NCBI GenBank assembly: GCA_947599875.1
Contig: CANQFV010000022.1
Span: 1-42,458, forward strand
Source of the DNA: an uncultured Oscillospiraceae bacterium
GTDB lineage: Bacteria > Bacillota > Clostridia > Oscillospirales > Oscillospiraceae
Reading direction: 5' to 3'
Length of the DNA stretch: 42,458 bases
Made by a program: the position numbers and the translations under genes. A model generated the notes under the pieces. That model did not search any database. It had not been told where the DNA came from and worked only from the letters and a program-made list of their open reading frames with translations. Below, piece by piece: positions 4,536-35,633 of the stretch (the first letter of the stretch is position 1; every line of letters begins with the position of its first letter).

Positions 4536-4590
4536 GAGGGGGGCAAAGCCCCCTCAACCTGTCGAAAAAGCCCAATGGGCTTTTTCGGCA
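4536..4590 (+). terminator. Tandem terminator hairpins after the kinase gene
   Basis: The first hairpin, GAGGGGGG-CAAA-GCCCCCTC, starts directly after the TAA. The second, CGAAAAAGCCC-AAT-GGGCTTTTTCG, is at 4563-4587, and its 3' arm carries a T run. Confidence 0.75.
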
Positions 4591-4643
4591 AACGACGGGG
4601 GCCGGTGTGACACGGGGAAAATGAGGTCGTGCATCTCCGGAAA

Positions 4644-4728
4644 ACCGGTGTGACACGGGGACGGTTCTTTAGTCCCACCTGCGGTGTGACAAAAAACCGT
4701 CCCCTTTGTCCCACCTCCTCAAAGGAAC
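4644..4728. repeat. Module M2 repeat, copy b
   Basis: A single hairpin, GGGGACGGTTCTTT...AAACCGTCCCC, with the inner stem CCCACC-TGCG-GTGTG, followed by the conserved GTCCCACCTCCTC. Confidence 0.8.
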
Positions 4729-4758
4729 GGAAAAAGAGCGTTACCATCCATTCAATCT

Positions 4759-5058
4759 GTACGGGCCGCCGCCCACGGCGGCCCGCGTCGTTTGAGTTGC
4801 GTTGAATCGATACCCGGTGGTAATCGAAACCCGGGCCGACGAGGTCGTCGGCCCCTACATACACCAAATGCCGTCGATTCGGACAATGAGGCAAAATTGA
4901 GGGGCGGGCCGCCAAGAGAGGCGGCCCCTACTGTCTGCAAGACTCCCTTGTAGGGGCCGATGACCTCATCGGCCCGGGCGGGTTGGGTGACAGAGCGGTT
5001 GCGTTAAGATGGAAAACTTTAATATTTGCCGTAGGGGCCGCCGCCCTCGGCGGCCCGT
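4759..5058. repeat. Cluster of five REP-like palindromes (BIME-like)
   Basis: Five short GC-rich palindromes of the GGGCCG...CGGCCC type, at 4763-4784, 4833-4854, 4906-4927, 4953-4975 and 5034-5056. Their inner arms differ (GCCGCC/GGCGGC, GACGA/TCGTC, GATGA/TCATC) but remain complementary. Four are flanked on the same side of the stem by GTAG (or CTAC when inverted) and one by GTAC. Both orientations occur, as in BIMEs. GTAG at the stem foot is the mark of REP sequences recognised by RAYT-type Y1 transposases; none is encoded here. Confidence 0.8.
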
Positions 5059-5113
5059 GTCGTTGATTGAGGGCGGTATAATAAACGGGGAAAGGGCAGT
5101 GTCAAGCATCACC

Positions 5114-5367
5114 GGAAGCCGGTGTGACACGGGGACGGTTCCTTAGTCACACCAGTGTGCGCACTGGTGGTACAAAGAAACCGTCCCCGCTGTCCCACCT
5201 CCTCAAGAGACGGGAAGTTCCTCCGTCAAAGGCGGAACTGAGGGACGGTTTTTTTGTACCACCGCAGCGTCAGCGGAGGTGTGACAAAAGAACCGTCCCT
5301 CTGTAACGCCGGGTCAAGGTCTCCAATCAACGGAAGCTGCCCCGTCCTCCACTCCCCCAATCAAATA
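5114..5367. repeat. Module M2 repeat, copy c, with linker
   Basis: Two full hairpins: GGGGACGGTTCCTT...GAAACCGTCCCC with inner stem CACCAGTG-TGCG-CACTGGTG, and GAGGGACGG...CCGTCCCTC with the GCAGCGTCAGCGG apex. Between them is the conserved GCTGTCCCACCTCCTC stretch. The linker from about 5310 runs to M1 copy B. Confidence 0.85.
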
Positions 5368-5544
5368 TTTTTTCCAAGGACATGTGCCTTGGAAAAAATC
5401 CCTCTCGCCGCGCAAGTGACCAGTCCGCAGACTGGTCGCACAGCGCGGCAGCAGGAAAGGGCCAATCGAATTCCGCAGAATTCGATTGGCCCTTTCCGCA
5501 CGCATCCTATTGGCATTGAAAGGCCTTCAGGCCTTTCAAGCCAG
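5368..5544 (-). repeat. Module M1 four-hairpin element, copy B
   Basis: On the minus strand it begins 5 nt after the yabR stop codon with CTGGCTTGAAAGGCC (hairpin 4). Hairpin 3 follows (variable stem with apex GAATTCTGCGGAATTC), then hairpin 2 with apex CAGTCTGCGGACTG, then hairpin 1 (TTTTTTCCAAGG/CCTTGGAAAAAA). Confidence 0.88.
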
Positions 5545-5549
5545 TTAAG

Positions 5550-5987
5550 TCATCGTCTGCGTTTCGAGTTCCGCCGCTCGGTCTGACGCATGGCGTCAGA
5601 GATCCGACCCTCGGAGTCCTTCATAAACCGCTTGAGCTTATCCTCAAAGTCCGCGTCCACCGGCCCCTCCGGGGCGGCATACGGCTCCGGCTGACGCTGG
5701 GCGCTGGGACGGGAGCCTGCGGGGCGGGGGCCTTTCTGCTGAGGCTCCGGGCGCGGCAGGGTCTGCTTGATGGACAGGTTGATCCTCCCCTGTTCATCAA
5801 TGCTGATGACCTTGACCTTGACCTCCTGCCCCACGGTCAGGAAGTCGGAGACGTTGTTCACAAAGGTGTTGGCGATCTCCGATATGTACACAAGCCCCGA
5901 TTTCCCCGGCGCCAGCTGTACAAACGCCCCGAATTTGGTGATGCCCGTGACCTTACCGGTCAGTACGGCTCCCTTTTGTATATCCAT
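5550..5987 (-). CDS. yabR: S1-domain RNA-binding protein, YabR-like
   Basis: A 145-residue cytoplasmic protein. Residues 1-75 form one S1 (OB-fold) domain with the signature GKVTGITKFGAFVQL and a LSIKQ ending. A Pro/Gln/Arg-rich linker and a charged C-terminus ending in RRR follow. The start at 5987 has AGAGGAA upstream; an ATG 18 nt earlier lacks a site. It is the last gene of the yabP-yabQ-divIC-yabR cluster conserved in Bacillus and Clostridia. The molecular role is not established beyond RNA binding. Confidence 0.88.
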   Translation of the reverse strand: MDIQKGAVLTGKVTGITKFGAFVQLAPGKSGLVYISEIANTFVNNVSDFLTVGQEVKVKVISIDEQGRINLSIKQTLPRPEPQQKGPRPAGSRPSAQRQPEPYAAPEGPVDADFEDKLKRFMKDSEGRISDAMRQTERRNSKRRR

Positions 5988-6032
5988 TTCTATTCCTCTC
6001 TGCAAGAACAGATTAAAGCGCGCTTTACAAGA

Positions 6033-6293
6033 TCAGAATACCTTCTCGTCCGGATCCACATAGCCGTGTTCACGGGCGATGTCCCGAATGACCTCGTCGT
6101 CGTCCGCGTTGTCGATGGCGTACTGCATCCGGTCGTTTTCCGCCGCCAGCTGTGCCTCCTGCTGCTTCAGCTCCTGAAGCTGTTCCTGGGCCTCCGCCTT
6201 CCGGTCGTTGAGCCGGGCCAGAGATACCAGCGCGTAGATAAACACCACCGCTATAACGATCTTCGTAAGAATACCTGTGCGTTTGAGCCGCAT
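6033..6293 (-). CDS. divIC: Septum formation initiator DivIC/FtsB-like
   Basis: An 86-residue bitopic division protein. It has a short basic N-terminus, one membrane segment at about residues 9-26, a heptad coiled coil rich in Glu, Gln and Leu (about 29-60), and the C-terminal EVIRDIAREHGYVDPDEKVF segment typical of DivIC/FtsB. It would form a complex with FtsL and DivIB at the division site. A GGGGGAG site lies about 7 nt before the ATG. The gene sits between yabQ and yabR in the conserved order. The upstream yabQ frame runs 224 nt into this gene. Confidence 0.9.
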   Translation of the reverse strand: MRLKRTGILTKIVIAVVFIYALVSLARLNDRKAEAQEQLQELKQQEAQLAAENDRMQYAIDNADDDEVIRDIAREHGYVDPDEKVF

Positions 6294-6771
6294 GTTCGCT
6301 CTCCCCCGTGATATCCGCCCCCTGGGCGGAGCGTTTCTGATTCTTTTTTATTGTAAACCATTTTACGGGAGAAGAAAAGGATTTTTTTAAAATTCGTCGA
6401 AATTTTTTTAAAGTTTTTCCCACAAACCCCAGGGGAACGGCCAAAAAACCGGCGATCAGGCCGATAAGCCACTGGAGGAACCGGGCAAATTCCACCACAT
6501 ACGGACTGAGGGTCACAAAATACACTCCGGCCCCCAGGGCAAAGAGGATCTGCATGAAGATCCGCTGCTCCCCGCCCCCGGCGGAGAGGCCCAGGGCGAA
6601 GAGGGCAAAGGCACACACCGCCCAGAACAGGATATCCAGCACCGCCGTGAGGAACCGTCCCCCCAGGCTCCCCCGGGGGACGCGCAGCAGATCATACAGC
6701 GCCCCGGCCAGCGCCCCCAGCAGCAGCGATATCCCCGCCTGAACCGCCTGATCGGATACGGCGATCTCCAT
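6070..6771 (-). CDS. yabQ: Spore cortex biosynthesis protein YabQ, with unusual 3' overlap
   Basis: An integral membrane sporulation protein needed for cortex formation in B. subtilis. The first ~150 residues look genuine: several hydrophobic helices, YDLLRVPRG near residue 26, then a Lys-rich stretch ending PVKWFTIKKNQKR. After that the frame stays open for 75 more codons inside divIC and gives a Gly/Ala/Arg-rich tail that looks like out-of-frame coding. At 6349-6343 the in-frame heptamer A-AAA-AAG is followed 12 nt later by the hairpin TCCGCCC-AGG-GGGCGGA. A -1 shift there would end the protein at 6251. The start overlaps the yabP stop region and uses AGGTGA as ribosome binding site. Confidence 0.82.
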   Translation of the reverse strand: MEIAVSDQAVQAGISLLLGALAGALYDLLRVPRGSLGGRFLTAVLDILFWAVCAFALFALGLSAGGGEQRIFMQILFALGAGVYFVTLSPYVVEFARFLQWLIGLIAGFLAVPLGFVGKTLKKFRRILKKSFSSPVKWFTIKKNQKRSAQGADITGESEHAAQTHRYSYEDRYSGGVYLRAGISGPAQRPEGGGPGTASGAEAAGGTAGGGKRPDAVRHRQRGRRRGHSGHRP

Positions 6772-6774
6772 CGC

Positions 6775-7062
6775 TCACCTGAACAGCCGGGCGAAAAGGC
6801 CCTCCTGGCGCTGTCCGTCGTCCTCATACTCCAGGGCGTCCACCTGCCCCGTCACCAGCACGTCCCCGCTGTCCACGCTGAGCTTCTCCATGTGCAGCTC
6901 CTCCCCGTGGACGGCCAGGGTGCCCCGGGTCGTCCCCATGATGACCTCCTGCTCGTTGAAGCTCTCCACTCGCGTCACCCCCGACACCAAAAGCCTCCCG
7001 CGCCCCTCCAGGCTGAGACTGTGGGGTGCGGACAGGGAGGGCGTCCGCTCCTCTGCCGTCAT
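6775..7062 (-). CDS. yabP: Sporulation protein YabP
   Basis: A 95-residue protein of the YabP/YqfC family. The pattern is an N-terminal PHSLSLEGRGRLLVSGV segment, then VESFNEQEVIMGTTRG and LHMEKLSVDSGDVLVTG, close to the family consensus. In B. subtilis the gene is expressed in the mother cell and acts with YabQ in spore cortex formation. AAAGGAG lies upstream of the ATG. It is the first gene of the cluster and is divergent from the M23 peptidase gene. I could not make out a convincing sigma-E promoter. Confidence 0.9.
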   Translation of the reverse strand: MTAEERTPSLSAPHSLSLEGRGRLLVSGVTRVESFNEQEVIMGTTRGTLAVHGEELHMEKLSVDSGDVLVTGQVDALEYEDDGQRQEGLFARLFR

Positions 7063-7157
7063 AAGCTCACACTCCTTTCGCTGTTTCCACTATATTCTTG
7101 TCCCCACCGGCTATGTGGAATTTTTTTGGCCCTTCGCCACTATTTTCGTCGAAGGGG

Positions 7158-7186
7158 TTGACAGAATTCTCCGGATGGTGTATAGT
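7158..7186 (+). promoter_or_regulatory. Sigma-A promoter of the G5/M23 peptidase gene
   Basis: TTGACA (7158-7163), 17 nt, TATAGT (7181-7186), a near-consensus promoter about 50 nt before the start codon. Confidence 0.85.
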
Positions 7187-7202
7187 GCAATTCGTAACTA
7201 TT

Positions 7203-7219
7203 TGTAACTCTTTTGTAAC
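7203..7219 (+). promoter_or_regulatory. WalR (YycF)-type box
   Basis: TGTAAC-TCTTT-TGTAAC, an exact match to the WalR consensus of two TGTWAH hexamers 5 nt apart. A third degenerate copy (CGTAAC, 7193-7198) lies just upstream. The box is downstream of the -10 element, so binding there would be expected to repress. Confidence 0.65.
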
Positions 7220-7234
7220 TTGTGTGAGGAGCTT

Positions 7235-8071
7235 ATGAGATTCAGCGATAATCGGAAGAAGCTGTCCAGGCGTCTGGGTGTGCTTTCGGCCCTGGCGGCG
7301 GTGTGCGGCTGTACAGTGCTTTTGGCGGCCTTCTCCGGGAGTGCCAACGCCGCCCCCGGGGCGCAGGCGCCTATGGCGGCGGAGAGCCGGGCCTTGGAGG
7401 CGGCCGTCCGGGTGACGGAGGCCCGCTCCTGCCGGGAGAGGACTGTCCCCTACGAGACGGTGACGCTCCCTGACGACACCATGTATTCCGACGAGCAGGA
7501 GGTGGTCCAGGAGGGGGCCGACGGCCTGTGCCGGGATATCGTGGTCACGGTGTACACCGACGGGGAGCGGACGGAGGAATATGTGGACGGCACCCAGATG
7601 CTGGTGGAGCCGGTGGATAAGATCATCCGCCAGGGCACGCTCCCCGGGTCCCGTACCGACTCCCGGGGGACGTATATCTGGCCCACCACCGGGATCATCT
7701 CCTCCGGCTACGGGCGGCGGAGCATCTCCGGCGGCTCCAGCAACCACAAGGGGCTGGACATCGCCAACGACGTGGGGACGGAGGTCTTTGCCGCCGACGG
7801 GGGGCTTGTGATCTACGCCGACTTCTGGGCGGGAAGCGGCTACGGCAACATCATAAAGCTCCAGCACGACAACGGGGACGTGACCTACTACGCCCATCTG
7901 AGCCAGATCCTGGTCGCGGAGGGCGATCGCGTGGCCCAGGGCCAGCTGATCGCCCTGATGGGCGCCACAGGCAACGTCACAGGCCCCCACCTGCACTTCG
8001 AGCTTCGCCCCGGCGGCGGCTCCCCCATCAACCCCGTCTCCCACCTGACGGGGGAATTGAAGCGAATCTGA
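7235..8071 (+). CDS. Secreted G5-domain and M23 metallopeptidase
   Basis: A 278-residue exported cell-wall endopeptidase. A basic start and a hydrophobic signal segment cover about residues 10-33. A G5 domain follows (about 55-130, with VTVYTDGERTEEYVDGT). The LytM-type M23 domain has the zinc ligands in NHKGLDIA (His and Asp) and TGPHLHFEL (the final HxH). It should cleave peptide cross-links in peptidoglycan. The start ATG at 7235 follows GAGGAG at a short 3-nt gap; a TTG at 7220 is in frame but lies before that site. The WalR-type box and strong promoter fit a growth- or wall-stress-regulated hydrolase. M1 copy C begins 1 nt after the stop codon. Confidence 0.9.
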   Translation: MRFSDNRKKLSRRLGVLSALAAVCGCTVLLAAFSGSANAAPGAQAPMAAESRALEAAVRVTEARSCRERTVPYETVTLPDDTMYSDEQEVVQEGADGLCRDIVVTVYTDGERTEEYVDGTQMLVEPVDKIIRQGTLPGSRTDSRGTYIWPTTGIISSGYGRRSISGGSSNHKGLDIANDVGTEVFAADGGLVIYADFWAGSGYGNIIKLQHDNGDVTYYAHLSQILVAEGDRVAQGQLIALMGATGNVTGPHLHFELRPGGGSPINPVSHLTGELKRI

Positions 8072-8072
8072 A

Positions 8073-8334
8073 CTGGCTTGAAAGGCCGCAGGGGTTTAGA
8101 CTGGCTTGAAAGGCCACAGAGGCCTTCTGACACGGGCGGCTTTTGGCGCCTCTCCTACCCTGGCGGTAAACCCCTGCGGCCTTTCAATGCCAATAGGACG
8201 CGTGCGGAAATGCCCCATCGAATTCTGCGGAATTCGGGCGGCCCTTTCCTGCTGCCGCGCTGCAGCGCACGCCCAAGGGCGCACGTTTGCGCGGCAAGAG
8301 GGATTTTTTCCGACGTACATGCCGCCGGAAAAAA
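8073..8334 (+). repeat. Module M1 four-hairpin element, copy C
   Basis: It starts 1 nt after the peptidase stop codon. The hairpin-4 part is enlarged: a 21-bp perfect outer stem (TTGAAAGGCCGCAGGGGTTT and its complement ending at 8187) encloses a second CTGGCTTGAAAGGCC copy. Hairpin 3 (about 8206-8249) has one arm (CCCATC) that no longer matches the other (GGGCGG), as if built from two copies. Hairpin 1 ends in GGAAAAAA at 8334. Confidence 0.85.
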
Positions 8335-8356
8335 TATTGAAATAGGGAATTCGGCT

Positions 8357-8550
8357 ACGGGCAGCCGGTGTGACACGGGGACGGTTCTTTAGTCCCATCT
8401 TCGCTATGCTTCGATGTGACAAAAGAACCGTCCCCGCTGTCCCACCTCCTCAAAAGACGGGAAGTTCCTCCGTAAAAGGCGGGACTTGAGGGACGGTTTT
8501 TTTGTCACACCGCAGGTGGGACTAAAGAACCGTCCCTCTGTAACGCCGGG
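8357..8550. repeat. Module M2 repeat, copy d
   Basis: Two hairpins. The first, GGGGACGGTTCTTT...AAAGAACCGTCCCC, has an inner CATCTTCG/TTCGATGTG stem. The second, GAGGGACGGTTT...AGAACCGTCCCTC, has an inner CACACCGCAGGTGGG stem, which is the reverse complement of the inner stem in copy b. Confidence 0.85.
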
Positions 8551-8599
8551 GGAAAGCTGCCGGTTGCGGTGAAGGGTGTCGTCTCCGGAAACCCACCCC

Positions 8600-8960
8600 C
8601 GTCCCCCACCGGCTCAGTCCAAAGGGCGCGACGTACCACCGGGTGGCTCATCGCGCCGATTCGTCCAGAAAACCCCCGGGGGACTCCCCGGGGGTTTCTC
8701 CAGTAGGGGGCCCGCAGGCCCCCTAACTGGTCGTTTTTAAAAGGGGAGTCCAGAGGGGGAAAATCGAAATCCCCCTCTGGTTGTTTTTCTCCTCTTTGTT
8801 ACTTTCTCCTCTTTTGTCAACACAAAAGAGGAGAAAGTAAAATACCCCGTCCGCCCTTCGGGCGGACACCTCATTCCCCCGTTGGGGGAAAGCCCCCTCC
8901 CGGGGCGCCCGGAAAACTCCCTGCGGGAGCTTTTGTCCCTCCGCCCTTCGGGCGGACTTT
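8600..8960 (-). repeat. Module M3 multi-hairpin element, copy 1
   Basis: On the minus strand it starts at the DUF975 stop codon with GTCCGCCC-GAA-GGGCGGA. It continues with a CCGGG-type hairpin, GTCCGCCC again, a long ACTTTCTCCTC...GAGGAGAAAGT stem, CCAGAGGGGG/CCCCCTCTGG, AGGGGGCC/GGCCCCCT and an AACCCCCGGGG/CCCCGGGGGTT stem. A second copy with changed but complementary stems is at 27740-28105. No gene was seen in 8072-8960. Confidence 0.82.
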
Positions 8961-9749
8961 TTACATTTCCGGCTGTGTCTCTGTGGTGGGCGGCAGGCCC
9001 AGCACCTCGTTATAGAAGGCGGTGTGGGCCAGTGTGGAGTAGGGGGTGAGCCACAGCTTGAAGATAGGCAGGCCCACAATGGTGGTGATAAGACTCTCCA
9101 GGATATTCCACCCGATAAAGGACAGCTCCAGCTTGAAGAGCCTCCACTTATTGCCGCGCATCAGCGCCCCGGACTCCTCCATGCACTGTATCACGCCCTT
9201 GGAGGGGTCGTCCATCAGGATATAGATGGCCAGGGAGTACCGGAAGGCCAGGATGATGCCGGGGATGACGAACAGAAGGCCCCCCAGGGCGACGAGAAGC
9301 GAGATGAGGAGGGTGACAGCCAGGGTCTTCAGCGTCACCTGGAAGCCGTGGAGCAGTGATCCCACATGGGTAGCGACGCCCCGGCTCTCCTGGATCATGT
9401 GCCAGCAGTATCCGGCGGTCAGGGGCACCGACATCAGGTTGATGAGCCAGCTCAGGGCCACGGCGAAAGCGCCCCGCGCAAAGGTACCCACCTCCGGCAT
9501 ACTCGGGATGAGATTCGTGTATATCTCCTCCAACTCCTCTGCACTCGGGGCCTCGCCGATCTGCTGGATGTAGGCGTCCATGTGGCGGATAAGCTCCCTT
9601 GACCAGGCGTTGAGGCCGGACAACTCATTGGCCAGGTAGTTGATGAGATAGTCCACCACCAAAAACGCCGCCGCGGTGAGTAACAGCGGCATAAGCCGGC
9701 GGCGGAAGACCCGCCGGGCATGTCCTTTCAGTTCCCGTGAATTGAGCAT
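8961..9749 (-). CDS. DUF975 family membrane protein
   Basis: A 262-residue integral membrane protein. The N-terminus (LNSRELKGHARRVFRRR) and the later GVIQCMEESGALMRGNKWRLFKLELSFIGW region match the DUF975 family. About five membrane segments are visible, with VIPGIILAFRYSLA in the middle. The function of the family is unknown. The gene follows the MATE transporter by 22 nt and is probably in the same transcript. GGAAAGGAAGG precedes the ATG. Module M3 begins at its stop codon. Confidence 0.88.
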   Translation of the reverse strand: MLNSRELKGHARRVFRRRLMPLLLTAAAFLVVDYLINYLANELSGLNAWSRELIRHMDAYIQQIGEAPSAEELEEIYTNLIPSMPEVGTFARGAFAVALSWLINLMSVPLTAGYCWHMIQESRGVATHVGSLLHGFQVTLKTLAVTLLISLLVALGGLLFVIPGIILAFRYSLAIYILMDDPSKGVIQCMEESGALMRGNKWRLFKLELSFIGWNILESLITTIVGLPIFKLWLTPYSTLAHTAFYNEVLGLPPTTETQPEM

Positions 9750-9771
9750 AACGATCCTTCCTTTCCGTGAT

Positions 9772-11124: not shown

Positions 11125-11140
11125 TGGACTTACCACCTTT

Positions 11141-11177
11141 AGCCTGTCGAAAAAGGCCCTTGGCTTTTTGGCAGGCT
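11141..11177 (-). promoter_or_regulatory. Leader hairpin directly before the MATE ribosome binding site
   Basis: On the minus strand AGCCTGCCAAAAAG pairs with CTTTTTCGACAGGCT and ends immediately before AAAGGTGG. It could hide or expose the ribosome binding site. It resembles the kinase terminator hairpin at 4563-4587 in its GTCGAAAAAG arm. Confidence 0.5.
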
Positions 11178-11194
11178 AACCTTTCCGTGTCTCT

Positions 11195-11222
11195 ATCATA
11201 ACCGTTTTGGCAAAAATGTCAA
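11195..11222 (-). promoter_or_regulatory. Sigma-A promoter of MATE-DUF975
   Basis: On the minus strand TTGACA (11222-11217), 16 nt, TATGAT (11200-11195). Confidence 0.75.
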
Positions 11223-11243
11223 GCCCTTCCCCGGGCAGGCAAA

Positions 11244-11270
11244 GCCGGGCCGGCACATGTCCGGCCCGGC
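11244..11270 (-). terminator. Terminator-like hairpin after purL
   Basis: GCCGGGCCGG-ACATGTG-CCGGCCCGGC, followed on the minus strand by TTTG only. It marks the end of the purine operon, about 20 nt after the purL stop. The stem is strong but the T run is short. Confidence 0.65.
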
Positions 11271-11288
11271 AGTCCTGCTCAGGAGGCC

Positions 11289-14963: not shown

Positions 14964-14977
14964 CGTCGCGTCTCCCC

Positions 14978-16249: not shown

Positions 16250-16261
16250 ATTCTCCTCCCC

Positions 16262-16541
16262 AGAGCATCCTTCCGCCTGCCCAGCAGGCGTCGCAGACTT
16301 CGCGTCCGCAGACGCGAATCCATTTTGATTTTTCAACATTTTTTCCAAGGACATGCGCCTTGGAAAAAAGCATCGCAGATTTCGCGTCCGCAGACGCGAA
16401 CCAATCCAATCATTTTTCCAAGGACATGTGCCTTGGAAAAATGCCCTCTCAGGCCCCCGGAGTGTGCGGCCCTTCGGGCCGTGCGCGCAGGGGGCCGGCA
16501 AATCCCCTCACCACTAAAAGGCCGGAACGGCCTTTTAGTGG
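16262..16541 (-). repeat. Tandem M1-like hairpins between purH and purD
   Basis: Two copies of a hairpin-1 unit (16339-16369 and 16413-16441; TTTTTCCAAGG/CCTTGGAAAAA) alternate with two copies of TTCGCG-TCTGCGGA-CGCGAA (minus sense; 16299-16318 and 16381-16400). A CCACTAAAAGGCC/GGCCTTTTAGTGG hairpin (16511-16541) contains the purH stop codon. All lie inside the operon transcript. The apical TCTGCGGA is the one found in M1 hairpins 2 and 3. Confidence 0.8.
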
Positions 16542-17719: not shown

Positions 17720-17728
17720 AGTAGCACC

Positions 17729-20081: not shown

Positions 20082-20118
20082 TAAAATTCCTTTCCTTATT
20101 CTCCAAGCGATTCAAATA

Positions 20119-20190
20119 TTTTTTCCGGCAACATGTGCGTCGGAAAAAATCCCTTTTGTTTTGCGCAGTGTGCAAAGGGCTTCGCCCTTT
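20119..20190 (-). repeat. Solo M1 hairpin-1 unit between purF and purM
   Basis: TTTTTTCCG...CGGAAAAAA at 20119-20149 with loop GCAACATGTGCGT. It is accompanied by a short AAAGGGC-TTC-GCCCTTT hairpin (20174-20190). It lies in the only sizeable gap between the first three operon genes. Confidence 0.7.
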
Positions 20191-24549: not shown

Positions 24550-24613
24550 CGCGCCTGCCGAAAAAACCGCATAAATTCCGGAATTTGGAGAAGAAATAAG
24601 GCATAGGCCTGAA

Positions 24614-24720
24614 GTAGCCGGCGTTGCATGGGAATGCGTCTATGGAAAGCCGGCATTGCATGGGGGCGGTTCTTTTGTGCCACCGAAGCGAAGCGGAGGT
24701 GGGCCTGAAGAACCGTCCCC
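24614..24720. repeat. Short direct repeats and degenerate M2 copy e
   Basis: GCCGGCGTTGCATGGG and GCCGGCATTGCATGGG lie about 32 nt apart (24616-24663). A worn M2 hairpin follows (GCGGTTCTTTTGTGCCACC...AAGAACCGTCCCC). It lies just before the lipoprotein gene, a tandem rather than a convergent position. Confidence 0.65.
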
Positions 24721-24776
24721 GAATCCCACTTATACCCCTCCGGGGGAACCCGGAAAGCCCGTTGGAGGAAGCGAAA

Positions 24777-26672: not shown

Positions 26673-26747
26673 GCCTATGGGAGAAGCCCTGCGGGCTTTT
26701 CCGGCAAAGGGAGAAGATTAATTTTACAGTTTCCCCCGGTTTTGTTC

Positions 26748-26776
26748 TCGACAAGTCAAATTTTTCTTGATATAAT
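26748..26776 (+). promoter_or_regulatory. Sigma-A promoter of the DegV gene
   Basis: TCGACA (26748-26753), 17 nt, TATAAT (26771-26776). A CCCCCGG/CCCCGGGGG hairpin lies in the leader (about 26795-26817). Confidence 0.75.
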
Positions 26777-26857
26777 GATAGAGTACCTTTTTGTCCCCCG
26801 GACACACCCCGGGGGCGGGAGGCCCGGCGAAGAAATTGTATCCGAAAGGTGATCCTT

Positions 26858-27730: not shown

Positions 27731-27739
27731 AGAGGTCTA

Positions 27740-28105
27740 CAAAAAAGAGATCCGCCTGAAAGGCGGAAGGAAGATTCCCCCGAAGGGGGATAAGGTGTCC
27801 GCCCGTAGGGCGGGGAGGGGTTTTCTCCAACGGAGGAATAAGGTGTCCGCCCGCAGGGCGGACGGGGTATTTTACTTTCTCCCTTTTGATTTCGTCAAAA
27901 GGGAGAAAGTAACAAAGAGGGAAAACCGACCAGGGGGGATTTCGATTTCCCCCCTGGACCCCCTTGAACCGACCAGTTAGGGGGCTGCGGCCCCCTACTG
28001 GAGAAACCCCCGGGGAGCCCCCCGGGGGTTTTCTGGACGAATCGGTTGTTGCTGCCACGGGGCTGTCTGGCGCGCCCTTTGGACTGAGGAGGTGGAAGTC
28101 GAGGG
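27740..28105 (+). repeat. Module M3 multi-hairpin element, copy 2
   Basis: It starts about 10 nt after the degV stop. It holds the same order of hairpins as copy 1 seen on the opposite strand: GTCCGCCCG-type units, the ACTTTCTCCCTTTTGA/TCAAAAGGGAGAAAGT stem, CCAGGGGGGA/TCCCCCCTGG, AGGGGGC/GCCCCCT and AACCCCCGGGG/CCCCGGGGGTT. Compared with copy 1, the CTCCTCTTTTG arm has changed to CTCCCTTTTGA and its partner arm has changed to match. Confidence 0.82.
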
Positions 28106-28136
28106 CGGCTTTTCGGAGACGACACCTTCCCCCGTC

Positions 28137-28835
28137 TTTTGAGGAGGTGGGACAACAGGGACGGTTTCTTTGACTGAGGAGGTGGGACAAAGGGGACGGT
28201 TCTTTTGTACCACCAGTGCGCACACTGGTGTGACTAAAGAACCGTCCCCGTGTAACACCGGCTTCCGGGAAACACACGCCCCCCTCTCCGTGCCCCACAG
28301 GGGACGGTTCTTGTGAACCATTGTCGCTTGCGCTCCAATGTCCTACAAAAACCGTCCCCGTGAGGCAATGATAACACTCAGTTGTCGATACCTGAGGAGG
28401 CGGTTCAACAGGGACGGTTCTTCGTGGGGCACGAATGTGACTCACAAGAACCGTCCCTTTGGGACGCCGGCTTCCCGGTGATGCATATCGCCGCCTTTCC
28501 CTGTTTATTTTGCGGCGCTCAACCAACGCGGGCCGCCGTGGACGGCGGCCCGTACAGGCTTCCCGGTGACATCAAGGCCTTGCTCCGGTGTGACACGGGG
28601 ACGGTTCTTTAGTCCCATCTCCGCTTTGCTCCGATGTGACAAAAGAACCGTCCCCGCTGTCCCACCTCCTCAGAAGACGGGAAGCTCCTCTGAAAAAGGC
28701 GGGACTTGAGGGACGGTTCTTTTGTACCACCGCAGCGTCAGCGGAGGTGTGACAAAAGAACCGTCCCTCTGTAACGCCGGGTCAAGACCTCCGGTCAACG
28801 AAACACCCCCCCGCCCCGCGTCCCCATTTCAATTA
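28137..28835. repeat. Module M2 repeats, copies f, g and h, with one REP-like palindrome
   Basis: Three M2 units in a row. Copy f (28137-28270) has inner stem CACCAGTG-CGCA-CACTGGTG. Copy g (28300-28472) has two hairpins with other inner stems (around TTGTCGCTTGCGCTCCAA, and GTGGGGCAC/GTGACTCAC). Copy h (28588-28782) is very similar to copy d in its first half and to copy c in its second. A REP-like GGGCCGCCG/CGGCGGCCC with GTAC is at 28530-28555. A linker runs to M1 copy D. No gene was seen in 27731-29096. Confidence 0.82.
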
Positions 28836-29094
28836 TTTTTTCCAAGGACATGTGCCTTGGAAAAAATCCCTCTTGCCGCGCAAGTGACCAGTCCGCAGAC
28901 TGGTCGCACGGCGCGGCAGCAGGAAAGGGCCGCCCGAATTCCGCAGAATTCGGGTGGCCCTTTCCGCACGTTCTCTTTGGCATTGGAAGGCCGCAGGGGC
29001 TTACCGTCAGAGTAGGAGAGGCACGGAAAGCCCCCGCGCCAGAGGACTCCTGTGGCCTTTCAAGCCAGCGTGCCCCTGCGGCCTTCCAAGCCAG
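28836..29094 (-). repeat. Module M1 four-hairpin element, copy D
   Basis: On the minus strand it begins 2 nt after the fakA stop. Hairpin 4 is enlarged: TTGGAAGGCCGCAGGGGC pairs with its complement at 28984-29001 and encloses another CTTTCAAGCCAG edge. Hairpin 3 has stem arms GCCCG/CGGGT around GAATTCCGCAGAATTC. Hairpin 2 has apex CAGTCCGCAGACTG. Hairpin 1 begins TTTTTTCC at 28836. Confidence 0.87.
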
Positions 29095-29096
29095 CC

Positions 29097-30788: not shown

Positions 30789-31138
30789 CAATCTATGTTT
30801 ATCGAGTCAACGAATACATCCACGGTGCGAACCTGGATGCCGGTGGCGTCCGTGACCTTGTACTTGACCTCGCTGATGATGCTGCTGCACAGCACCGGGA
30901 TATTCACGCCCTGATCCACAATGATGTGGAGGTCAATGTCGATGCAGCTCTCTGCGTAGGCGATATGAACGCCCCGTCCCATTGCCTCGGGCTTGAGAAG
31001 ATGGACAAGGCCGTCCGTCACCGAGCGCATAGCCATACCCTTGACGCCGAAGCAGCTCGTGGCCGCGTCCCCCACCAGAGTGGTGATGACCTCCGGAGAT
31101 ATTGAGATGACACCGCGTGCGGTTTTGAATCTGACCAT
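30788..31138 (-). CDS. Asp23/Gls24 family envelope-associated protein (YloU)
   Basis: A 116-residue member of the Asp23/DUF322 family. It has ARGVISISPEVITTLVGDAATSCFGVKGM at the N-terminal side, the VHIAYAESCIDIDLHIIVDQGVNIP middle strand and the EVKYKVTDATGIQVRTVDVFVDSI end. Relatives sit at the membrane and affect envelope stress responses. It is translationally coupled to fakA, as is usual. A ribosome binding site is not strong (AAAGGGGTG). Confidence 0.92.
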   Translation of the reverse strand: MVRFKTARGVISISPEVITTLVGDAATSCFGVKGMAMRSVTDGLVHLLKPEAMGRGVHIAYAESCIDIDLHIIVDQGVNIPVLCSSIISEVKYKVTDATGIQVRTVDVFVDSINID

Positions 31139-31173
31139 ATCTACACCCCTTTACCGAAAAATTGTACCGAGTT

Positions 31174-31202
31174 ATTATACTATAAAATGATCCGAACTAC
31201 AA
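31174..31202 (-). promoter_or_regulatory. Promoter of asp23-fakA
   Basis: On the minus strand TTGTAG (31202-31197), 17 nt, TATAAT (31179-31174). Confidence 0.65.
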
Positions 31203-31274
31203 GATGTCATTTCCACGATTTTTCCCCATTTCCCCGGTTTTTCCCGGGAATTTCCCGTCTGTGGGAAAAAAGTA

Positions 31275-31303
31275 TTGAATTCTTTGAAAAAACAGTGTAA
31301 AAT
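31275..31303 (+). promoter_or_regulatory. Promoter of the 60-residue membrane protein gene
   Basis: TTGAAT (31275-31280), 17 nt, TAAAAT (31298-31303), with GGAGGT close before the ATG at 31334. Confidence 0.68.
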
Positions 31304-31333
31304 AACAGCACAACTTATCATGGAGGTCCCGGA

Positions 31334-31516
31334 ATGAAAAAGAAGAATATCCTTATCCTCATCTCCGCCGTCGCCTTTGTCGTCGCGGCGGTAACGGTCG
31401 TCATCGTATTCCGCAAACAGATCGCGGACTTCCTCATGTCCGCCAGGGCCAGGCTCCAAAAGCCCGCCCATCCCGACTTCACCGCCGAGGAGCGGGAATC
31501 CTTCGCGGATATATAA
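31334..31516 (+). CDS. Small single-span membrane protein, unknown
   Basis: 60 residues: a Lys-rich start, one membrane segment (about residues 6-25, ILILISAVAFVVAAVTVVIV), then a basic and polar tail ending HPDFTAEERESFADI. It has its own promoter and a good GGAGGT site, which supports expression. I do not recognise a family. The tail should face the cytoplasm if the positive-inside rule is applied to the RK-rich stretch after the helix; the N-terminal KKK makes this uncertain. Confidence 0.7.
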   Translation: MKKKNILILISAVAFVVAAVTVVIVFRKQIADFLMSARARLQKPAHPDFTAEERESFADI

Positions 31517-31539
31517 GGCGGAAATATAGGGCATAAACC

Positions 31540-31696
31540 AAGCGGGGACGCCATGTCCCCGCTTTTAGCCTGCGGAAAAAGCCCGCTTTTCCCACAAGGG
31601 GAAACCGGTGGGCCACGGGAACCTGGAGAACGGTAATGCCGGGTGAAAGCCTCCGGGCAACGTCAGGCACCCCGCCCCGCATCCCCTAATTCAATA
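31540..31696. repeat. Remnant of module M2 and linker
   Basis: An AAGCGGGGAC/GTCCCCGCTT hairpin right after the small gene (about 31540-31565) is a likely terminator. After it come worn M2-like pieces (GGGCCACGGGAACC, AACGGTAATGCCGGG) and the usual linker before M1 copy E. No gene was seen in 31517-31878. Confidence 0.6.
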
Positions 31697-31895
31697 TTTT
31701 TTCCAAGGACATGTGCCTTGGAAAAAATCCCTCTTGCCGCGCAAGTGTCCAGTCCGCAGACTGGTCGCGCAGCGCGGCAGCAGGAAGAGGGGGCGTGAAT
31801 TCCGCAGAATTCACGCCCCCTCTTCCGCACGCATCTTATTGGCAGGAAAAGGGTAACGGGTTCTCTGACGAGAACCCGTTACCCTTTTTCGCCAG
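31697..31895 (-). repeat. Module M1 four-hairpin element, copy E
   Basis: Hairpin 1 is at 31697-31727. Hairpin 2 has apex CCAGTCCGCAGACTGG. Hairpin 3 has arms GGGGGCGT/ACGCCCCC around GAATTCCGCAGAATTC. Hairpin 4 (31841-31893) is a long stem with loop TGAC. The XRE gene runs into hairpin 4, and its stop codon (31879-31881) lies in the stem. Confidence 0.88.
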
Positions 31896-32094
31896 CCCGG
31901 TATTCCAGGATATCCCCCGGTTGGCAGTCCAGGGCCTCGCAGATGGCCTCCAGGGTGGAGAAGCGGATAGCGCTGACCTTGCCGGTCTTGATCTTGGACA
32001 GGTTCACGTTGGCGATGCCCACCTTCTCCGCAAGGGTATTCAGGGACATCTTCCTGTCGGCCATCACCCGGTCCAGGCGTAAAATAATTGGCAT
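31879..32094 (-). CDS. XRE/Cro-type HTH regulator (YozG-like)
   Basis: A 71-residue DNA-binding protein that is almost entirely one HTH_3 domain: MADRKMSLNTLAEKVGIANVNLSKIKTG covers helices 1-3 and AIRFSTLEAICEALDCQPGDIL the rest. It follows the DUF2975 gene by 9 nt with GAGGTGG before the ATG. The XRE-DUF2975 pair is a common two-gene unit in Firmicutes. It is probably autoregulated through the palindrome at 32774-32800. Its last residues (AGEKG) are encoded by the edge of M1 copy E. Confidence 0.9.
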   Translation of the reverse strand: MPIILRLDRVMADRKMSLNTLAEKVGIANVNLSKIKTGKVSAIRFSTLEAICEALDCQPGDILEYRAGEKG

Positions 32095-32103
32095 TTGACC
32101 ACC

Positions 32104-32712
32104 TCAAAGCGTCTCGTCCGACTGGCGCTGCAGCTCCTCGCCGTAACGGAAGATCCAGGAGAGGAGGAAGAACGCCACCGGAATAAGCAAATATCCGGCC
32201 TCAAAATGAATATTGACCGTGTAAGCGGTGACGATTTCCCTGTTGAAGATCGCCATCAGGTCAAGCGAGGTAAAAATCATGTAATTGCCCACCGAGGACA
32301 CTACGGAAAAAATGACCACCTGCACCAGGGACACCCAGCCCAAAGTCCGAAGATTTTTGGAAATACGCCCGTCAAAGGGCCGGCCCTCCCGCATGGGGGA
32401 GAGAACACGATGAAGAATGTGTGCCCCGCACGCCAGGGTCATCAGCGCCACGATAGCACAGACGGCGCTGACGGAGGCCACCGCTTTCGGGTCAAGGGCG
32501 CTCCCGTTCTTGGGGGCTGGCCCCGACAGCTCCAGCCGGATCATACCGAGACTCAACGTCGTCCCGGAGCTTGTCCCCGTCTCCGACTGAATATCCCCGA
32601 ACAGCACCGCTATCAAAGTGACAAGAAATAATGCGGATAGAATGACACAGATCCACCGCACCGCCTTGGCGATCACATCCAGCACTTTCGCTGTCTTTTT
32701 AAGTTTTTCCAT
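32104..32712 (-). CDS. DUF2975 family membrane protein
   Basis: A 202-residue protein with four membrane segments (about residues 15-40, 85-105, 125-150 and 165-185). The topology and the SPMREGRPFDGRISKNLRTLG loop match DUF2975 proteins that are encoded with small XRE regulators. Their function is unknown; control of the regulator by the membrane protein is a reasonable guess. The start at 32712 follows GAGGAGGG; an upstream in-frame ATG is less likely. It is the first gene of the unit, behind a strong promoter. Confidence 0.85.
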   Translation of the reverse strand: MEKLKKTAKVLDVIAKAVRWICVILSALFLVTLIAVLFGDIQSETGTSSGTTLSLGMIRLELSGPAPKNGSALDPKAVASVSAVCAIVALMTLACGAHILHRVLSPMREGRPFDGRISKNLRTLGWVSLVQVVIFSVVSSVGNYMIFTSLDLMAIFNREIVTAYTVNIHFEAGYLLIPVAFFLLSWIFRYGEELQRQSDETL

Positions 32713-32742
32713 TGTTGTGCCCTCCTCTTTGAAGATGGGCAC

Positions 32743-32771
32743 AGTATACCACGGAAATTTATGTTTGTCAA
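32743..32771 (-). promoter_or_regulatory. Promoter of DUF2975-XRE
   Basis: On the minus strand TTGACA (32771-32766), 17 nt, TATACT (32748-32743). Confidence 0.82.
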
Positions 32772-32773
32772 CT

Positions 32774-32800
32774 AATATTTAACGATAATCGTTAAATATT
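32774..32800. promoter_or_regulatory. 27-bp perfect palindrome, likely operator
   Basis: AATATTTAACGAT, a central A, then ATCGTTAAATATT. Its edge is 2 bp upstream of the -35 hexamer of DUF2975-XRE and 7 bp from the dut stop codon. It is AT-rich in a GC-rich region. It is most likely the binding site of the XRE protein. Confidence 0.72.
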
Positions 32801-32807
32801 TGATGGT

Positions 32808-33251
32808 TTACCTCCCGGTAGAGCCGAAGCCGCCGGCGCCGCGCTCCGTCTCGGAAAGCTCCCGGGCCTCCTCAAACTGCGTAAACGCCACGGGGCAGAC
32901 CACAAGCTGGGCGATCCGGTCCCCCGGCTCCACGGTGACGGGGTTTGGGCCGTGGTTGTGGAGGGCCACCATGTATTCGCCCCGGTAGTCGGAGTCCACC
33001 ACCCCCACCTTGTTGGCGGGGGCCAGGCCGGATCTGCTGGCCAGGCCGGAGCGGGCGAAGACGAACCCGGCGTAGCCCTCCGGGATCTCGGCGGTGAGGC
33101 CGGTGTGGAAGAAGACGGTCTCCCCCGGGGCCACATCCACGGGGGCGTCCATGCAGGCGTGGAGATCCGCCCCGGCGGCGAAGGGGGAGCCCCGGGAGGG
33201 CAAAATGGCCCGGGGGTCCAGCTTTTTTACTTTGATGGTGATAGGTTCCAT
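32808..33251 (-). CDS. dut: dUTP diphosphatase
   Basis: Hydrolyses dUTP to dUMP, keeping uracil out of DNA and feeding dTMP synthesis. The 147-residue trimeric-type enzyme shows all five motifs: AGADLHA, ARSGLASRSGL, NKVGVVDSDYRGE with the catalytic Asp, GDRIAQLVV, and the C-terminal RGAGGFGSTGR that closes over the active site. It is a free-standing gene between a degenerate REP unit and the XRE operator. Confidence 0.96.
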   Translation of the reverse strand: MEPITIKVKKLDPRAILPSRGSPFAAGADLHACMDAPVDVAPGETVFFHTGLTAEIPEGYAGFVFARSGLASRSGLAPANKVGVVDSDYRGEYMVALHNHGPNPVTVEPGDRIAQLVVCPVAFTQFEEARELSETERGAGGFGSTGR

Positions 33252-33282
33252 AGGGTTGTTCCTTTCTGTGCTGCCGGTTGAA

Positions 33283-33309
33283 GGGGCCGGCCTGGGCGGA
33301 GGCCCGTAC
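33283..33309. repeat. Degenerate REP-like palindrome
   Basis: GGGGCCGGCCT...GGAGGCCCGTAC, the REP-like form with GTAC at the foot, between trxB and dut. Confidence 0.5.
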
Positions 33310-33321
33310 AGGGCTTTCCGT

Positions 33322-34239
33322 TTATTTCAGGGAATTGACGTATTTCGCGGCGGCGGTGGCGGCCACGGCCCCGTCCGCTGCGGCGGTGACAAGCTGGCGG
33401 AGTGCCTTGCGCCGCCCGTCCCCGGCCACCCAGATCCCCGGGGTGCCGGACTCGCAGTCCTCCCCGGCGATGGCGTAGCCGGCCTCGTCCATCCGGAGGA
33501 CGTTGGCGAAGGCGGCGTTGTTGGGGATCATGCCGATGGCGGTGAAGATGCCGGGTGTCGTCAGCGTCCGCTCCTGGCCCGTCTCCACGTTCCGCACCCG
33601 CAGGGCCGCGGCCCGGCCCCTGTCGTCCCCCAGCACCTCCGCCGGCACATAGGGCGTCAAAAAGCTGATGTTTGTCCTGTTTTTGGCAGCCTCCACCAGG
33701 TGCCGCTCCGCCCGGAATTCGTCCCTCCTGTGGACGAGATACACCGTGGAGCAGATGTTGGACAGATACAGCGCGTCCTCAAGGGCCGTGTTGCCCCCGC
33801 CCACCACGGCCACTTCCCGGTTCTTGAAAAACGCCCCGTCGCAGGAGGCGCAGGTGGACACGCCCCGCCCGGAGAACTCCGCCCCGCCGGGGCAGTCCAG
33901 CTTCCGGTGCCCCGCGCCGGTGGCGATGATCACGGCCGGCGCCTGAAAATCCCCCCTGGCAGTGTGGACAAGCTTCATCTCCCCCTGAAGCTCGATGCCC
34001 GTGACGGCAGCGGTTTTCACCTGGGCGCCCAGGGCCTGGGCCTGCTTTTGCCAGTTGTCCGCCAGACGCCAGCCCTCGATATGCTGGAGGGAGGGGAAAT
34101 TCTCCACATCCTGGGAGTTGATGATCTGTCCGCCGCAGACGGTGATCTCTAAGATCAGCGTCTCCAACCCCGCCCTGCGGGCGTATGTGGCGGCTGTCAG
34201 CCCCGCGGGGCCGCCGCCGATGATGATAAGGTCAGCCAT
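33322..34239 (-). CDS. trxB: Thioredoxin-disulfide reductase
   Basis: Reduces thioredoxin with NADPH through FAD. The 305-residue low-molecular-weight type shows the FAD loop IIGGGPAGLTAATYARRAG at the N-terminus, the redox CASC (in STCASCDGAFFKNREV, about residue 133), the NADPH loop VVGGGNTALEDALYL, and the C-terminal RQLVTAAADGAVAA that contacts FAD. AGD in the second FAD motif is followed by Gly where Val is common. The start at 34239 has GGAGG upstream; an earlier in-frame ATG adds an unlikely basic stretch. It diverges from trxA. Confidence 0.94.
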   Translation of the reverse strand: MADLIIIGGGPAGLTAATYARRAGLETLILEITVCGGQIINSQDVENFPSLQHIEGWRLADNWQKQAQALGAQVKTAAVTGIELQGEMKLVHTARGDFQAPAVIIATGAGHRKLDCPGGAEFSGRGVSTCASCDGAFFKNREVAVVGGGNTALEDALYLSNICSTVYLVHRRDEFRAERHLVEAAKNRTNISFLTPYVPAEVLGDDRGRAAALRVRNVETGQERTLTTPGIFTAIGMIPNNAAFANVLRMDEAGYAIAGEDCESGTPGIWVAGDGRRKALRQLVTAAADGAVAATAAAKYVNSLK

Positions 34240-34264
34240 ACTTGCCTCCGAAAATTTTTTCTTT

Positions 34265-34273
34265 AGTATATCA
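34265..34273 (-). promoter_or_regulatory. Extended -10 element of trxB
   Basis: On the minus strand TGATATACT, an extended -10 (TGN before TATACT), about 25 nt from the trxB start codon. No good -35 is seen. Confidence 0.55.
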
Positions 34274-34287
34274 CATCTAATCATAAA

Positions 34288-34316
34288 TTGACAGGGGCTT
34301 TGGAAAGAATTATAAT
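34288..34316 (+). promoter_or_regulatory. Sigma-A promoter of trxA
   Basis: TTGACA (34288-34293), 17 nt, TATAAT (34311-34316), a full consensus promoter. The ~115-nt leader holds a CCCCCCCGGCGGC/GCCGCGG-type GC-rich stretch. Confidence 0.88.
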
Positions 34317-34433
34317 GAAGTCAGATTTTCACCCGGAGTCCCCCCCCGGCGGCAAACCGGCCGCGGAGGGGAGGCCCCCGAACGGATCTGCACAGGAAAA
34401 AAACACAGAATAAGAACAAAAGGAGGATACCTC

Positions 34434-34733
34434 ATGGCTGAGATCGTAAACAAGGAGACCTTTGCGGAAAAAACCTCCACCGGAACCACTCTGGTGGACT
34501 TCTTCGCCACCTGGTGCGGCCCCTGCCGGATGCTGGCGCCCCTGCTGGAGGAGGTGGAGGCTCAGCGCCCGGACATCACCTTTGTGAAGGTGGATGTGGA
34601 CGAGTCCCCGGAGCTTGCCGACGCCTACAACGTCACCGGCGTCCCCACCCTGGTGCTGTTTAAAAACGGCGAGGTGGTAAAGACAAGCGTGGGCCTGCTG
34701 CCGAAGGAGGAGCTGGAGGAGCTGCTGGCTTGA
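34434..34733 (+). CDS. trxA: Thioredoxin
   Basis: A 99-residue cytoplasmic disulfide reductant. The active site WCGPC is at residues 28-32, VDVDESPELADAYNVTGVPTLVLF holds the cis-Pro loop, and the C-terminal helix follows. AAGGAGG precedes the ATG. It is the divergent partner of trxB, its reductase. The TGA stop codon lies inside the first arm of M1 copy F1 (CTGGCTTGAAAGGCC), so the last codons belong to the repeat edge. Confidence 0.96.
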   Translation: MAEIVNKETFAEKTSTGTTLVDFFATWCGPCRMLAPLLEEVEAQRPDITFVKVDVDESPELADAYNVTGVPTLVLFKNGEVVKTSVGLLPKEELEELLA

Positions 34734-34955
34734 AAGGCCGCAGGAGCCTTCTGGCAAGGGCGGCTTTCAGCGCCTTTCCGAGCTTTTGCGTAACCCCTGC
34801 GGCCTTTCAATGCCAAGGGGGAACGTGCGAAAGACCCGGCATGAATTCTGCGGAATTCACGCCGGGCCTTTCTGCTGCCGCGCTGCAGCGCACGCCCAAG
34901 GGCGCACGTTTGCGCGGCAAGAGGGATTTTTTGCGAGGCAAAGCCCCGCAAAAAA
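34725..34955 (+). repeat. Module M1 four-hairpin element, copy F1
   Basis: It starts inside the end of trxA. Hairpin 4 has outer arms TTGAAAGGCCGCAGG/CCTGCGGCCTTTCAA and an enlarged centre like copies C and D. Hairpin 3 has apex GAATTCTGCGGAATTC. Hairpin 2 is the CGCACGCCCAAGGGCGCACG form. Hairpin 1 is TTTTTTGCGAGGC...GCCCCGCAAAAAA, a third version of that stem. Confidence 0.87.
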
Positions 34956-35013
34956 TATTTGGATTGGGGGGAGCGGGACGAAGCCTGCGACGTTTGTGGG
35001 AGGCCGGCGTCCC

Positions 35014-35453
35014 AAAGGGACGGTTCTTGTGAGTCACATTCGTGCCCCACAAAGAACCGTCCCTGTTGAACCGCCTCCTCAGAAATCGATAACTGGGTGG
35101 TATCATTGCCTCACGGGGACGGTTTTTGTGGGACACCGCAGCGAAGCGAAGGTGGTTCACAAGAACCGTCCCCTGTGGGGCACGGAGTAGGGTGGCGTCG
35201 TGCATTGTCGGGGAGCCGGTGTGACACGGGGACGGTTCTTTAGTCACACCAGTGTGCGCACTGGTGGTACAAAAGAACCGTCCCCGCTGTCCCACCTCCT
35301 CAGAGGACGGGAAGTTCCTTCGTGAAAGGCGGGACTTGAGGGACGGTTTTTTTGTCACACCGCAGGTGGGACTAAAGAACCGTCCCTCTGTAACGCCGGG
35401 TCAGGGCCTCCGGTCAACGGAGAACGCCCCGTCCCGCTCCCCCAATCCAAATA
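35014..35453. repeat. Module M2 repeats, copies i and j, with linker
   Basis: Copy i (35014-35190) is nearly the reverse complement of copy g. Copy j (35216-35400) has the CACCAGTG-TGCG-CACTGGTG first hairpin and the GTCACACCGCAGGTGGGAC second hairpin. The linker from 35400 runs to M1 copy F2. No gene was seen in 34734-35633. Confidence 0.85.
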
Positions 35454-35628
35454 TTTTTTCCGGCGGCATGTACGTCGGAAAAAATCCCTCTTGCCGCGCA
35501 AGTGTCCAGTCCGCAGACTGGTCGCGCAGCGCGGCAGCAGGAAGGGGTTCCTGAATTCCACAGAATTCAGGAACCCCTTCCGCACGCGTCCTATTGGCAT
35601 TGGAAGGCCTTCAGGCCTTCCAAGCCAG
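35454..35628 (-). repeat. Module M1 four-hairpin element, copy F2
   Basis: On the minus strand it begins 5 nt after the coat protein stop. Hairpin 3 has arms GGGGTTCCT/AGGAACCCC with loop GAATTCTGTGGAATTC, the only copy with UGUG in the loop. Hairpin 2 has apex CCAGTCCGCAGACTGG. Hairpin 1 is the CCGGCGGCATG form. Confidence 0.87.
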
Positions 35629-35633
35629 CCATT

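Follow-up and report, generated by a model that had tools for sequence, protein, structure and literature searches.

Group IIC introns insert after transcription terminators, and ISfinder gives direct repeats of 0–60 bp for the IS1182 family of insertion sequences. In pneumococci, the small folded repeats BOX, RUP, and SPRITE resemble miniature inverted-repeat transposable elements (MITEs) and are over-represented between convergent genes; BOX is modular, SPRITE is terminator-like, and the portion of the study drawn on here takes such placement as evidence that the repeats are mobile entities whose presence downstream of genes is tolerated (PMC3049150). Repetitive extragenic palindromic (REP) sequences, according to the part of the report used here, are frequent between convergent genes and serve as insertion-sequence targets (PMC1525189), and IS1549 and IS1634 have long, variable direct repeats of 8–514 bp for which that paper, in the part cited, states that no mechanistic model has been proposed (PMC2266710). 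Here we describe M1, a hairpin array that recurs at gene ends in a 42,458-bp stretch of DNA (the window; 61.6% G+C), which is contig 22 of the 2.73-Mb, 89-contig genome G000 of an uncultured Oscillospiraceae bacterium. We put the probability that M1 is a family of non-autonomous IS1182-type MITEs that target palindromes near gene 3′ ends and are moved in trans at roughly 0.8.

Complete copies of M1, found mostly in relatives, were about 205 bp long and geneless and ended in CAGYYTGTCRAAAAA ... TTTTTTGACANNCTG, with the right TTTTTTGACANNCTG pairing with the left CAGYYTGTCRAAAAA. Selection by the right end (≤2 mismatches) together with the left end gave 130 entries and, minus three second readings, 127 elements, including 17 from G000; three identical bodies are still represented more than once. 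Lengths were 200–219 bp in 103/127, and the rest measured 100–119, in the 160s, 260–279, or 300–309 bp, plus three of 869–973 bp. Complete M1 has the features by which MITEs are recognized, namely short length (<500 bp), no transposase gene, and terminal inverted repeats, as well as target-site duplications (78/127) and empty sites (uppS and L081/L340, below). Two of the long forms, L206 (869 bp) and L215 (971 bp), had M1-type ends, flanking hairpin repeats, and a gene for a GNAT acetyltransferase but none for a transposase, and are possible mobile gene cassettes.

The flanks of these elements link M1 to hairpins. Direct repeats of 11–37 nt exceeded the maximum of 1006 shuffled pairings in those 78 elements (76/130 entries in a first count against the maximum of 1037 shuffled pairings). 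The repeat was usually a whole palindrome that, among the 74 with a hairpin, started 0–1 nt from the hairpin 5′ foot in 64, and repeat length tracked hairpin span (rho 0.71, p = 1e-12, n = 74). Stems of seven or more pairs were present in 67/78 duplicated sequences vs 79/1560 control segments, and a hairpin of nine or more pairs started at the element right end in 84/127 elements vs 16/1751 control windows. In an 842,458-base sample of G000 (31% of the genome), three of 61 copies had clear terminator-like duplications and kept the right end too; a fourth high score was by eye an internal repeat. Duplicated targets elsewhere included a palindrome in the 3′ coding part of uppS, the hairpins of older M1 copies (L261, L262), and, at L367, a TGTTTCACGTGAAACA palindrome, presumably parS-like, at which the element inserted and which it duplicated.

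Filled and empty versions of the same site were found at uppS, where two of 28 loci contained the element, one had a remnant by eye at the same spot, and 25 had no M1 match within 700 nt. In the filled sites, from two species, the element has one copy of the palindrome plus CGTGAAA on either side, and the nearer empty sites show a single copy of the palindrome leading directly into the stop codon. The own-genome copy C5:30617 (L081) likewise has an empty counterpart, L340.

The ends of M1 also occur on insertion sequences that encode a transposase. First searches for an autonomous form of M1 were unsuccessful, and L281–L283, tried as candidates bracketed by paired ends, held long open reading frames (ORFs) in which no transposase was recognized by eye, without a family-library scan. 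A DDE_Tnp_1_6 search then gave candidates, and 15 of the 30 candidate loci were examined. L393, L395, L396, and L403 are insertion sequences of 1496–1511 bp in four relatives, with both M1-type ends and each flanked by a duplicated hairpin. The sequence CAGTTTGTCAAAAAA, present at both L403 ends, is the commonest M1 right end, exact in 43 of the 130 entries of a set that was itself chosen by near-match to the L403-type end. Six of six transposases scanned (of seven listed) exceeded the NF033551 (IS1182) cut-off, with 340–440 bits vs 270, and a related transposase protein was found in 15 of 31 genomes. L388 was rejected as an insertion sequence with different ends, and L402, L394, and L397 were set aside because they matched at the left end only. 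M1 resembles the IS1182 family (NCBIfam NF033551) in its 15-bp ends, the family having a DDE transposase and, here, four two-ended copies flanked by duplicated palindromes. It differs in lacking a transposase gene, in carrying a hairpin array of which one end is terminator-like, and in its abundance, with at least 150 model matches in the genome of the window.

BOX, RUP, and SPRITE belong to another genus and, as far as the part of that study used here goes, target duplication by SPRITE could not be established, whereas the M1 target palindrome is duplicated; we set these repeats apart from M1 by their descriptions, not by sequence (PMC3049150). REP targets are reported, in the part of the paper at hand, to be split with no repeat or with 2-bp or 6-bp repeats (PMC1525189), in contrast to the whole palindrome duplicated by M1. 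IS1549 and IS1634 have a transposase of a different family, and no link between repeat length and hairpins is stated in the portion of that paper cited here (PMC2266710). In the open-licence literature we recognized no description of hairpin-sized target duplications, which is no proof of absence. As far as we have seen, the quantitative agreement between duplication and hairpin, a hairpin-array MITE with a terminator-like end, the cargo forms, and the module reassortment described below are new.

M1 is accompanied by two other repeats: M2, in which two GGGACGGTT..AACCGTCCC palindromes form a REP-like doublet, and M3, a hairpin array distinct from M1 and M2. An earlier note on this window had reported these modules between five of the six convergent gene pairs, with M2 or its remnants inside each, and had offered either function (a bidirectional 3′-UTR, collision barrier, or supercoil site) or insertion under strong selection as the reason for a strict convergent-only placement. 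The five occupied gaps were confirmed (4536–5549, 8072–8960, 27731–29096, 31517–31878, and 34734–35633), with gene identities from Pfam apart from a 60-aa ‘small protein’ at 31334–31516 that had no Pfam match, and the genes of the remaining pair, tspO/GNAT, do overlap. M2 or its remnants were present in four of these gaps; in 31517–31878 only M1 was found, the M2 search being negative and remnants arguable by eye. Strict placement did not hold even in the window, where tandem gaps contain M1 fragments and, by our gene calls, an M2 piece (Table 1).

Placement was quantified in the 842-kb sample, where 85 nhmmer M1 matches gave 73 kept copies (12 were dropped as short or as antisense matches of the self-palindrome), of which 68 lay between two called genes and five were unplaced at contig edges or with no gap. 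Genes were called with a home-made codon model that may have missed small genes, and four added ORFs overlapping M1 were removed from the gene set. M1 occupied 21/69 convergent, 34/551 tandem, and 3/66 divergent gaps (odds 6.7 for convergent vs tandem, p = 2e-8). The corresponding values were 16/69, 12/551, and 2/66 for M2 (46/53 matches assigned to gaps) and 6/69, 2/551, and 0/66 for M3 (10/11 assigned), so that M1 and M2 are both present in a small number of divergent gaps. When gaps of ≥100 nt were scored by gene end, M1 occurred at 25/92 convergent vs 31/204 tandem 3′ ends (p = 0.02), and at 9/324 5′ ends (3′ vs 5′ ends, p = 1.5e-11). Fifty-eight of the 68 placed copies were sense after a 3′ end (26 convergent, 32 tandem), and the other ten were six tandem and four divergent. 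The 127 complete elements comprised 48 in convergent gaps, 59 in tandem gaps (42 sense, p = 0.0015), three in divergent gaps, and 17 unplaced at locus edges, with none inside a called ORF. Copies were thus neither spread evenly nor scattered inside genes; the placement rule is the gene 3′ end, with a further factor of about two per end for convergence. Because M1 also occupies tandem 3′ ends, a convergent-specific function was rejected as the cause of this placement. The insertion branch of the earlier proposal is supported by the terminal inverted repeats, target-site duplications, filled and empty site pairs, and matching transposase family.

In the orientation of the preceding gene, M1 consists of H4, a linker, H3, H2, and H1. 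H4 is a terminator-like hairpin bounded by CTGGC...TGCCAA, H3 has the form GGAAAGG..GAATTC-TGCG-GAATTC..CCTTTCC, H2 is TGCCGCGC..GCGCGGCA, and H1 is ATTTTTTCC..GGAAAAAAT. All 150 scored candidates in G000 fit the covariance model R1, the lowest at 110 bits, which gives at least 150 copies (1983 first-look candidates), a repetition far beyond chance. No window match exceeded the Rfam gathering score, and M1 as a known RNA family was ruled out on that ground. In an alignment of 37 copies (a thirty-eighth, truncated by a contig end, was left out), the RNAalifold structure held in 98.7% of cells, and 16/34 pairs had changed on both sides; the observed number of cells with both-sided changes was reached by 0/500 shuffles and that of further pair types by 19/500, a comparison among related copies that is not to be read as a probability. 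H3 pairing was preserved in 98.2% of cells, 14/22 of its pairs had changed on both sides, and 23 different H3 5′ arms occurred among the 37 copies (one parse was odd). Eight of nine H1/H2 allele combinations were present in the same copies, which bears out the term ‘modular’ used previously. Orthologous copies at L185 and L188, with 93% flank identity, differed in both arms of H3, and L045 and L175, with near-identical flanks, differed in H4 and H2 as read from the sequences, though L045 lies close to a contig end and its difference may be an assembly error. Arm-to-arm templating was considered as the source of this paired variation and rejected: among 798 pairs in 75 hairpin duplications, 52 had changed in one arm and four in both, vs about 1.2 both-arm changes expected (from a near-identical first count). 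Hairpin duplications therefore diverge mainly through single changes, and ordinary mutation dominates in them.

Model R1 matched 20/25 genomes of the genus (G000 included) and 1/15 from other genera. The M1 right-end pattern was found in 102 stretches of named genomes, and 80/80 of the matches listed were uncultured Oscillospiraceae metagenome assemblies with isolates named ‘Lapin’. G030, from another family of the same order, gave 15 weak M1-model matches (best E 2.6e-6) and may contain a distant cousin.

We propose that M1, which an IS1182-family DDE transposase would mobilize in trans, inserts at palindromes, often terminator-like ones, close to gene 3′ ends and duplicates the palindrome, so that the host gene retains its own hairpin and M1 adds another, the left-end H4 resembling an intrinsic terminator. 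Such insertion explains the occurrence of M1 at gene 3′ ends, its enrichment in convergent gaps (with two 3′ ends and no promoter), and its scarcity near promoters. If the element were joined to the two feet of an extruded hairpin, the duplication would be as long as the hairpin, whatever that length. We extend this, at slightly less than even odds, to a transposase that picks its target by DNA shape, joining M1 to an extruded hairpin or cruciform at its two feet, and so accepts terminators, the parS-like palindrome, and older M1 hairpins alike, with self-nesting arrays that supply their own terminators and exchange modules among copies. The sense bias in tandem gaps fits selection that would keep H4 beside the gene, and a secondary role of M1 as a putative terminator or 3′ untranslated region (UTR) is possible. 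Such targeting would give a natural account of the repeats that crowd bacterial gene ends, in which the hairpins there, including transcription stop signals, are landing sites copied on insertion. The tracking of hairpin span by duplication length makes structure-guided targeting by a DDE transposase directly testable.

Several observations weigh against this interpretation. Movement of M1 was not directly observed, and the relatives listed for the right-end pattern are metagenome assemblies. No IS1182-type transposase matched in G000, a draft broken at repeats from which the absence of a gene is not certain, nor was one found in the M1-rich genomes G005, G006, G018, and G019. No duplication above the null maximum was present in 49/127 elements. 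Of 46 copies that were selected with the hairpin model and not by their ends, 20 had the right end and 23 the left end (≤2 mismatches), and 17 were flanked by direct repeats that exceeded the 99% null. All eight M1 copies in the window retain the left end and then continue into other sequence, M2 for instance, with no right inverted repeat and no flanking duplication; they are probably derivatives that multiplied within this genome alongside M2. TTTT, a crude terminator mark, stood at the 3′ foot of 27/74 duplicated hairpins in the tested direction, so not every target is a clear intrinsic terminator. A few elements had apparent 7–11 nt non-hairpin repeats by eye, and L161, for which empty counterparts exist, showed by eye only ~7 nt repeated and no long hairpin; palindromes are therefore a preference and not a requirement. 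The hypervariable yet paired H3 and H4 stems are unexplained by a MITE.

In a different reading, M1-M2-M1 is a selected 3′-end device between convergent genes (a bidirectional terminator, RNA stabilizer, collision barrier, or supercoil site). The M1 copy in the XRE gap has a very stable predicted fold (–131 kcal/mol vs a shuffled mean of –71, z –12), the H3 pairing is conserved as described, and copies are mostly sense to the preceding gene, both in G000 (58/68) and among complete tandem insertions (42/59). We nevertheless consider such a device unlikely, because the copies are species-specific, 34 of the 58 M1-bearing gaps are tandem, and the same placement is expected from a palindrome-seeking element at gene ends. 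Past the fakA stop codon, 27 of 28 readable relative loci had no M1 within 200 nt and one had a partial copy. At yabR (26/30 loci used, the other four being weak matches), sense M1 occurred in 0/25 relative loci and opposite-direction M1 in four, ~60–220 nt from the stop codon. Neither gene, then, had a full sense M1 at its stop in the same-genus species examined, and many of the relative ends show by eye plain hairpin terminators instead. The convergent position of the hairpin blocks appears to be a trace of landing options and not a dedicated device of convergent genes, and position between convergent genes alone is no proof of function.

Replication template switching at hairpins, with no transposase and the duplicated hairpin as a by-product, would explain why duplication boundaries coincide with hairpin feet, why the loops of the two copies appear inverted relative to each other in L278 and L330, why hairpin modules reassort, and why more than half of the model-picked copies have no recognizable right end. 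It is very unlikely given that the right end of complete elements is identical to both ends of L403 (with the selection of that set noted above) and that transposase-bearing insertion sequences show the same hairpin duplications. The least probable of the accounts takes all modules to be RAYT/REP elements, with a Y1 tyrosine transposase (RAYT, REP-associated tyrosine transposase) that moves the palindromes. M2 motifs resemble REP doublets and adjoin the single Y1_Tnp gene of the genome, whereas M1 has terminal inverted repeats common to a DDE-type insertion sequence, plus target duplications, features that REPs are not known to have; the account fits M2 at most.

M2 itself is probably a REP of the RAYT type. 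The only Y1_Tnp (RAYT-like) match in the genome, at C45 (L009, G000 contig 45), goes with M2 motifs, and M1 was rejected as a RAYT element on this basis. At this one locus M2-type palindromes lie at L009:843-1103 and 1739-1797, on one side of the gene and with a further one inside the open frame, and the gene may be interrupted. Inverted M1 pairs around M2 were present in convergent, tandem, and divergent gaps, and a larger M1-M2-M1 composite unit may move as one. Features of the window are collected in Table 1.

Table 1 Repeat copies and fragments in the window (positions on the 42,458-bp stretch).
Feature	Positions	Strand	Context
M1 core (H3-H2-H1)	222–375	-	H4 on to ~425; upstream of + strand gene; left neighbour off contig
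M1, short H4	5362–5544	-	Immediately past yabR stop codon
M1, long H4 variant	8073–8340	+	Past M23 peptidase stop codon
M1, long H4 variant	28830–29096	-	Past fakA stop codon
M1	31691–31895	-	H4 includes end and stop codon of Cro/C1-type (XRE) regulator ORF 31879–32094
M1, long H4 variant	34725–34961	+	Overlaps thioredoxin stop codon
M1	35448–35628	-	Past Coat_F gene
M1	42066–42266	+	Past feoB, close to contig end
Two M1 fragments	16335–16499	-	Tandem gap
M1 fragment, H1 side	20113–20172	-	Between tandem genes
M2	5112–5328	+	Double palindrome
M2	8357–8564	+	
M2	28579–28797	+	
Three M2 fragments	28124–28477	-	
M2	35209–35416	+	Plus fragment 35000–35176
M2	2–189	+	Contig edge
Partial M2	4639–4732	+	Kinase/yabR gap
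M2 fragment	24662–24730	-	Tandem gap 24550–24776; contradicts strict rule
M2 fragment	42303–42344	-	Beyond feoB M1 copy
M3	8562–8949	-	Past DUF975 gene
M3	27758–28140	+	Past degV

The left end of M1 can complete the host gene by contributing its final codons and its stop, as at window positions 31846–31895 for the Cro/C1-type regulator and in L231 for UppS of a relative. A further palindromic repeat (..CTCCTCTCCCCACGCAATC..GATTGCGTGGGGCCC..) occupies window positions 42345–42458, and by eye the CTCCTCTCCCCACGCAATC..GATTGCGTGGGGCCC repeat also lies inside the H2 loop of some elements of relatives (L227, L279, L277, L205). Palindromes of the form GGGCCGCC..GGCGGCCC, a separate short repeat family, are repeated at 4763–5063, 28530–28558, and 33284–33312.

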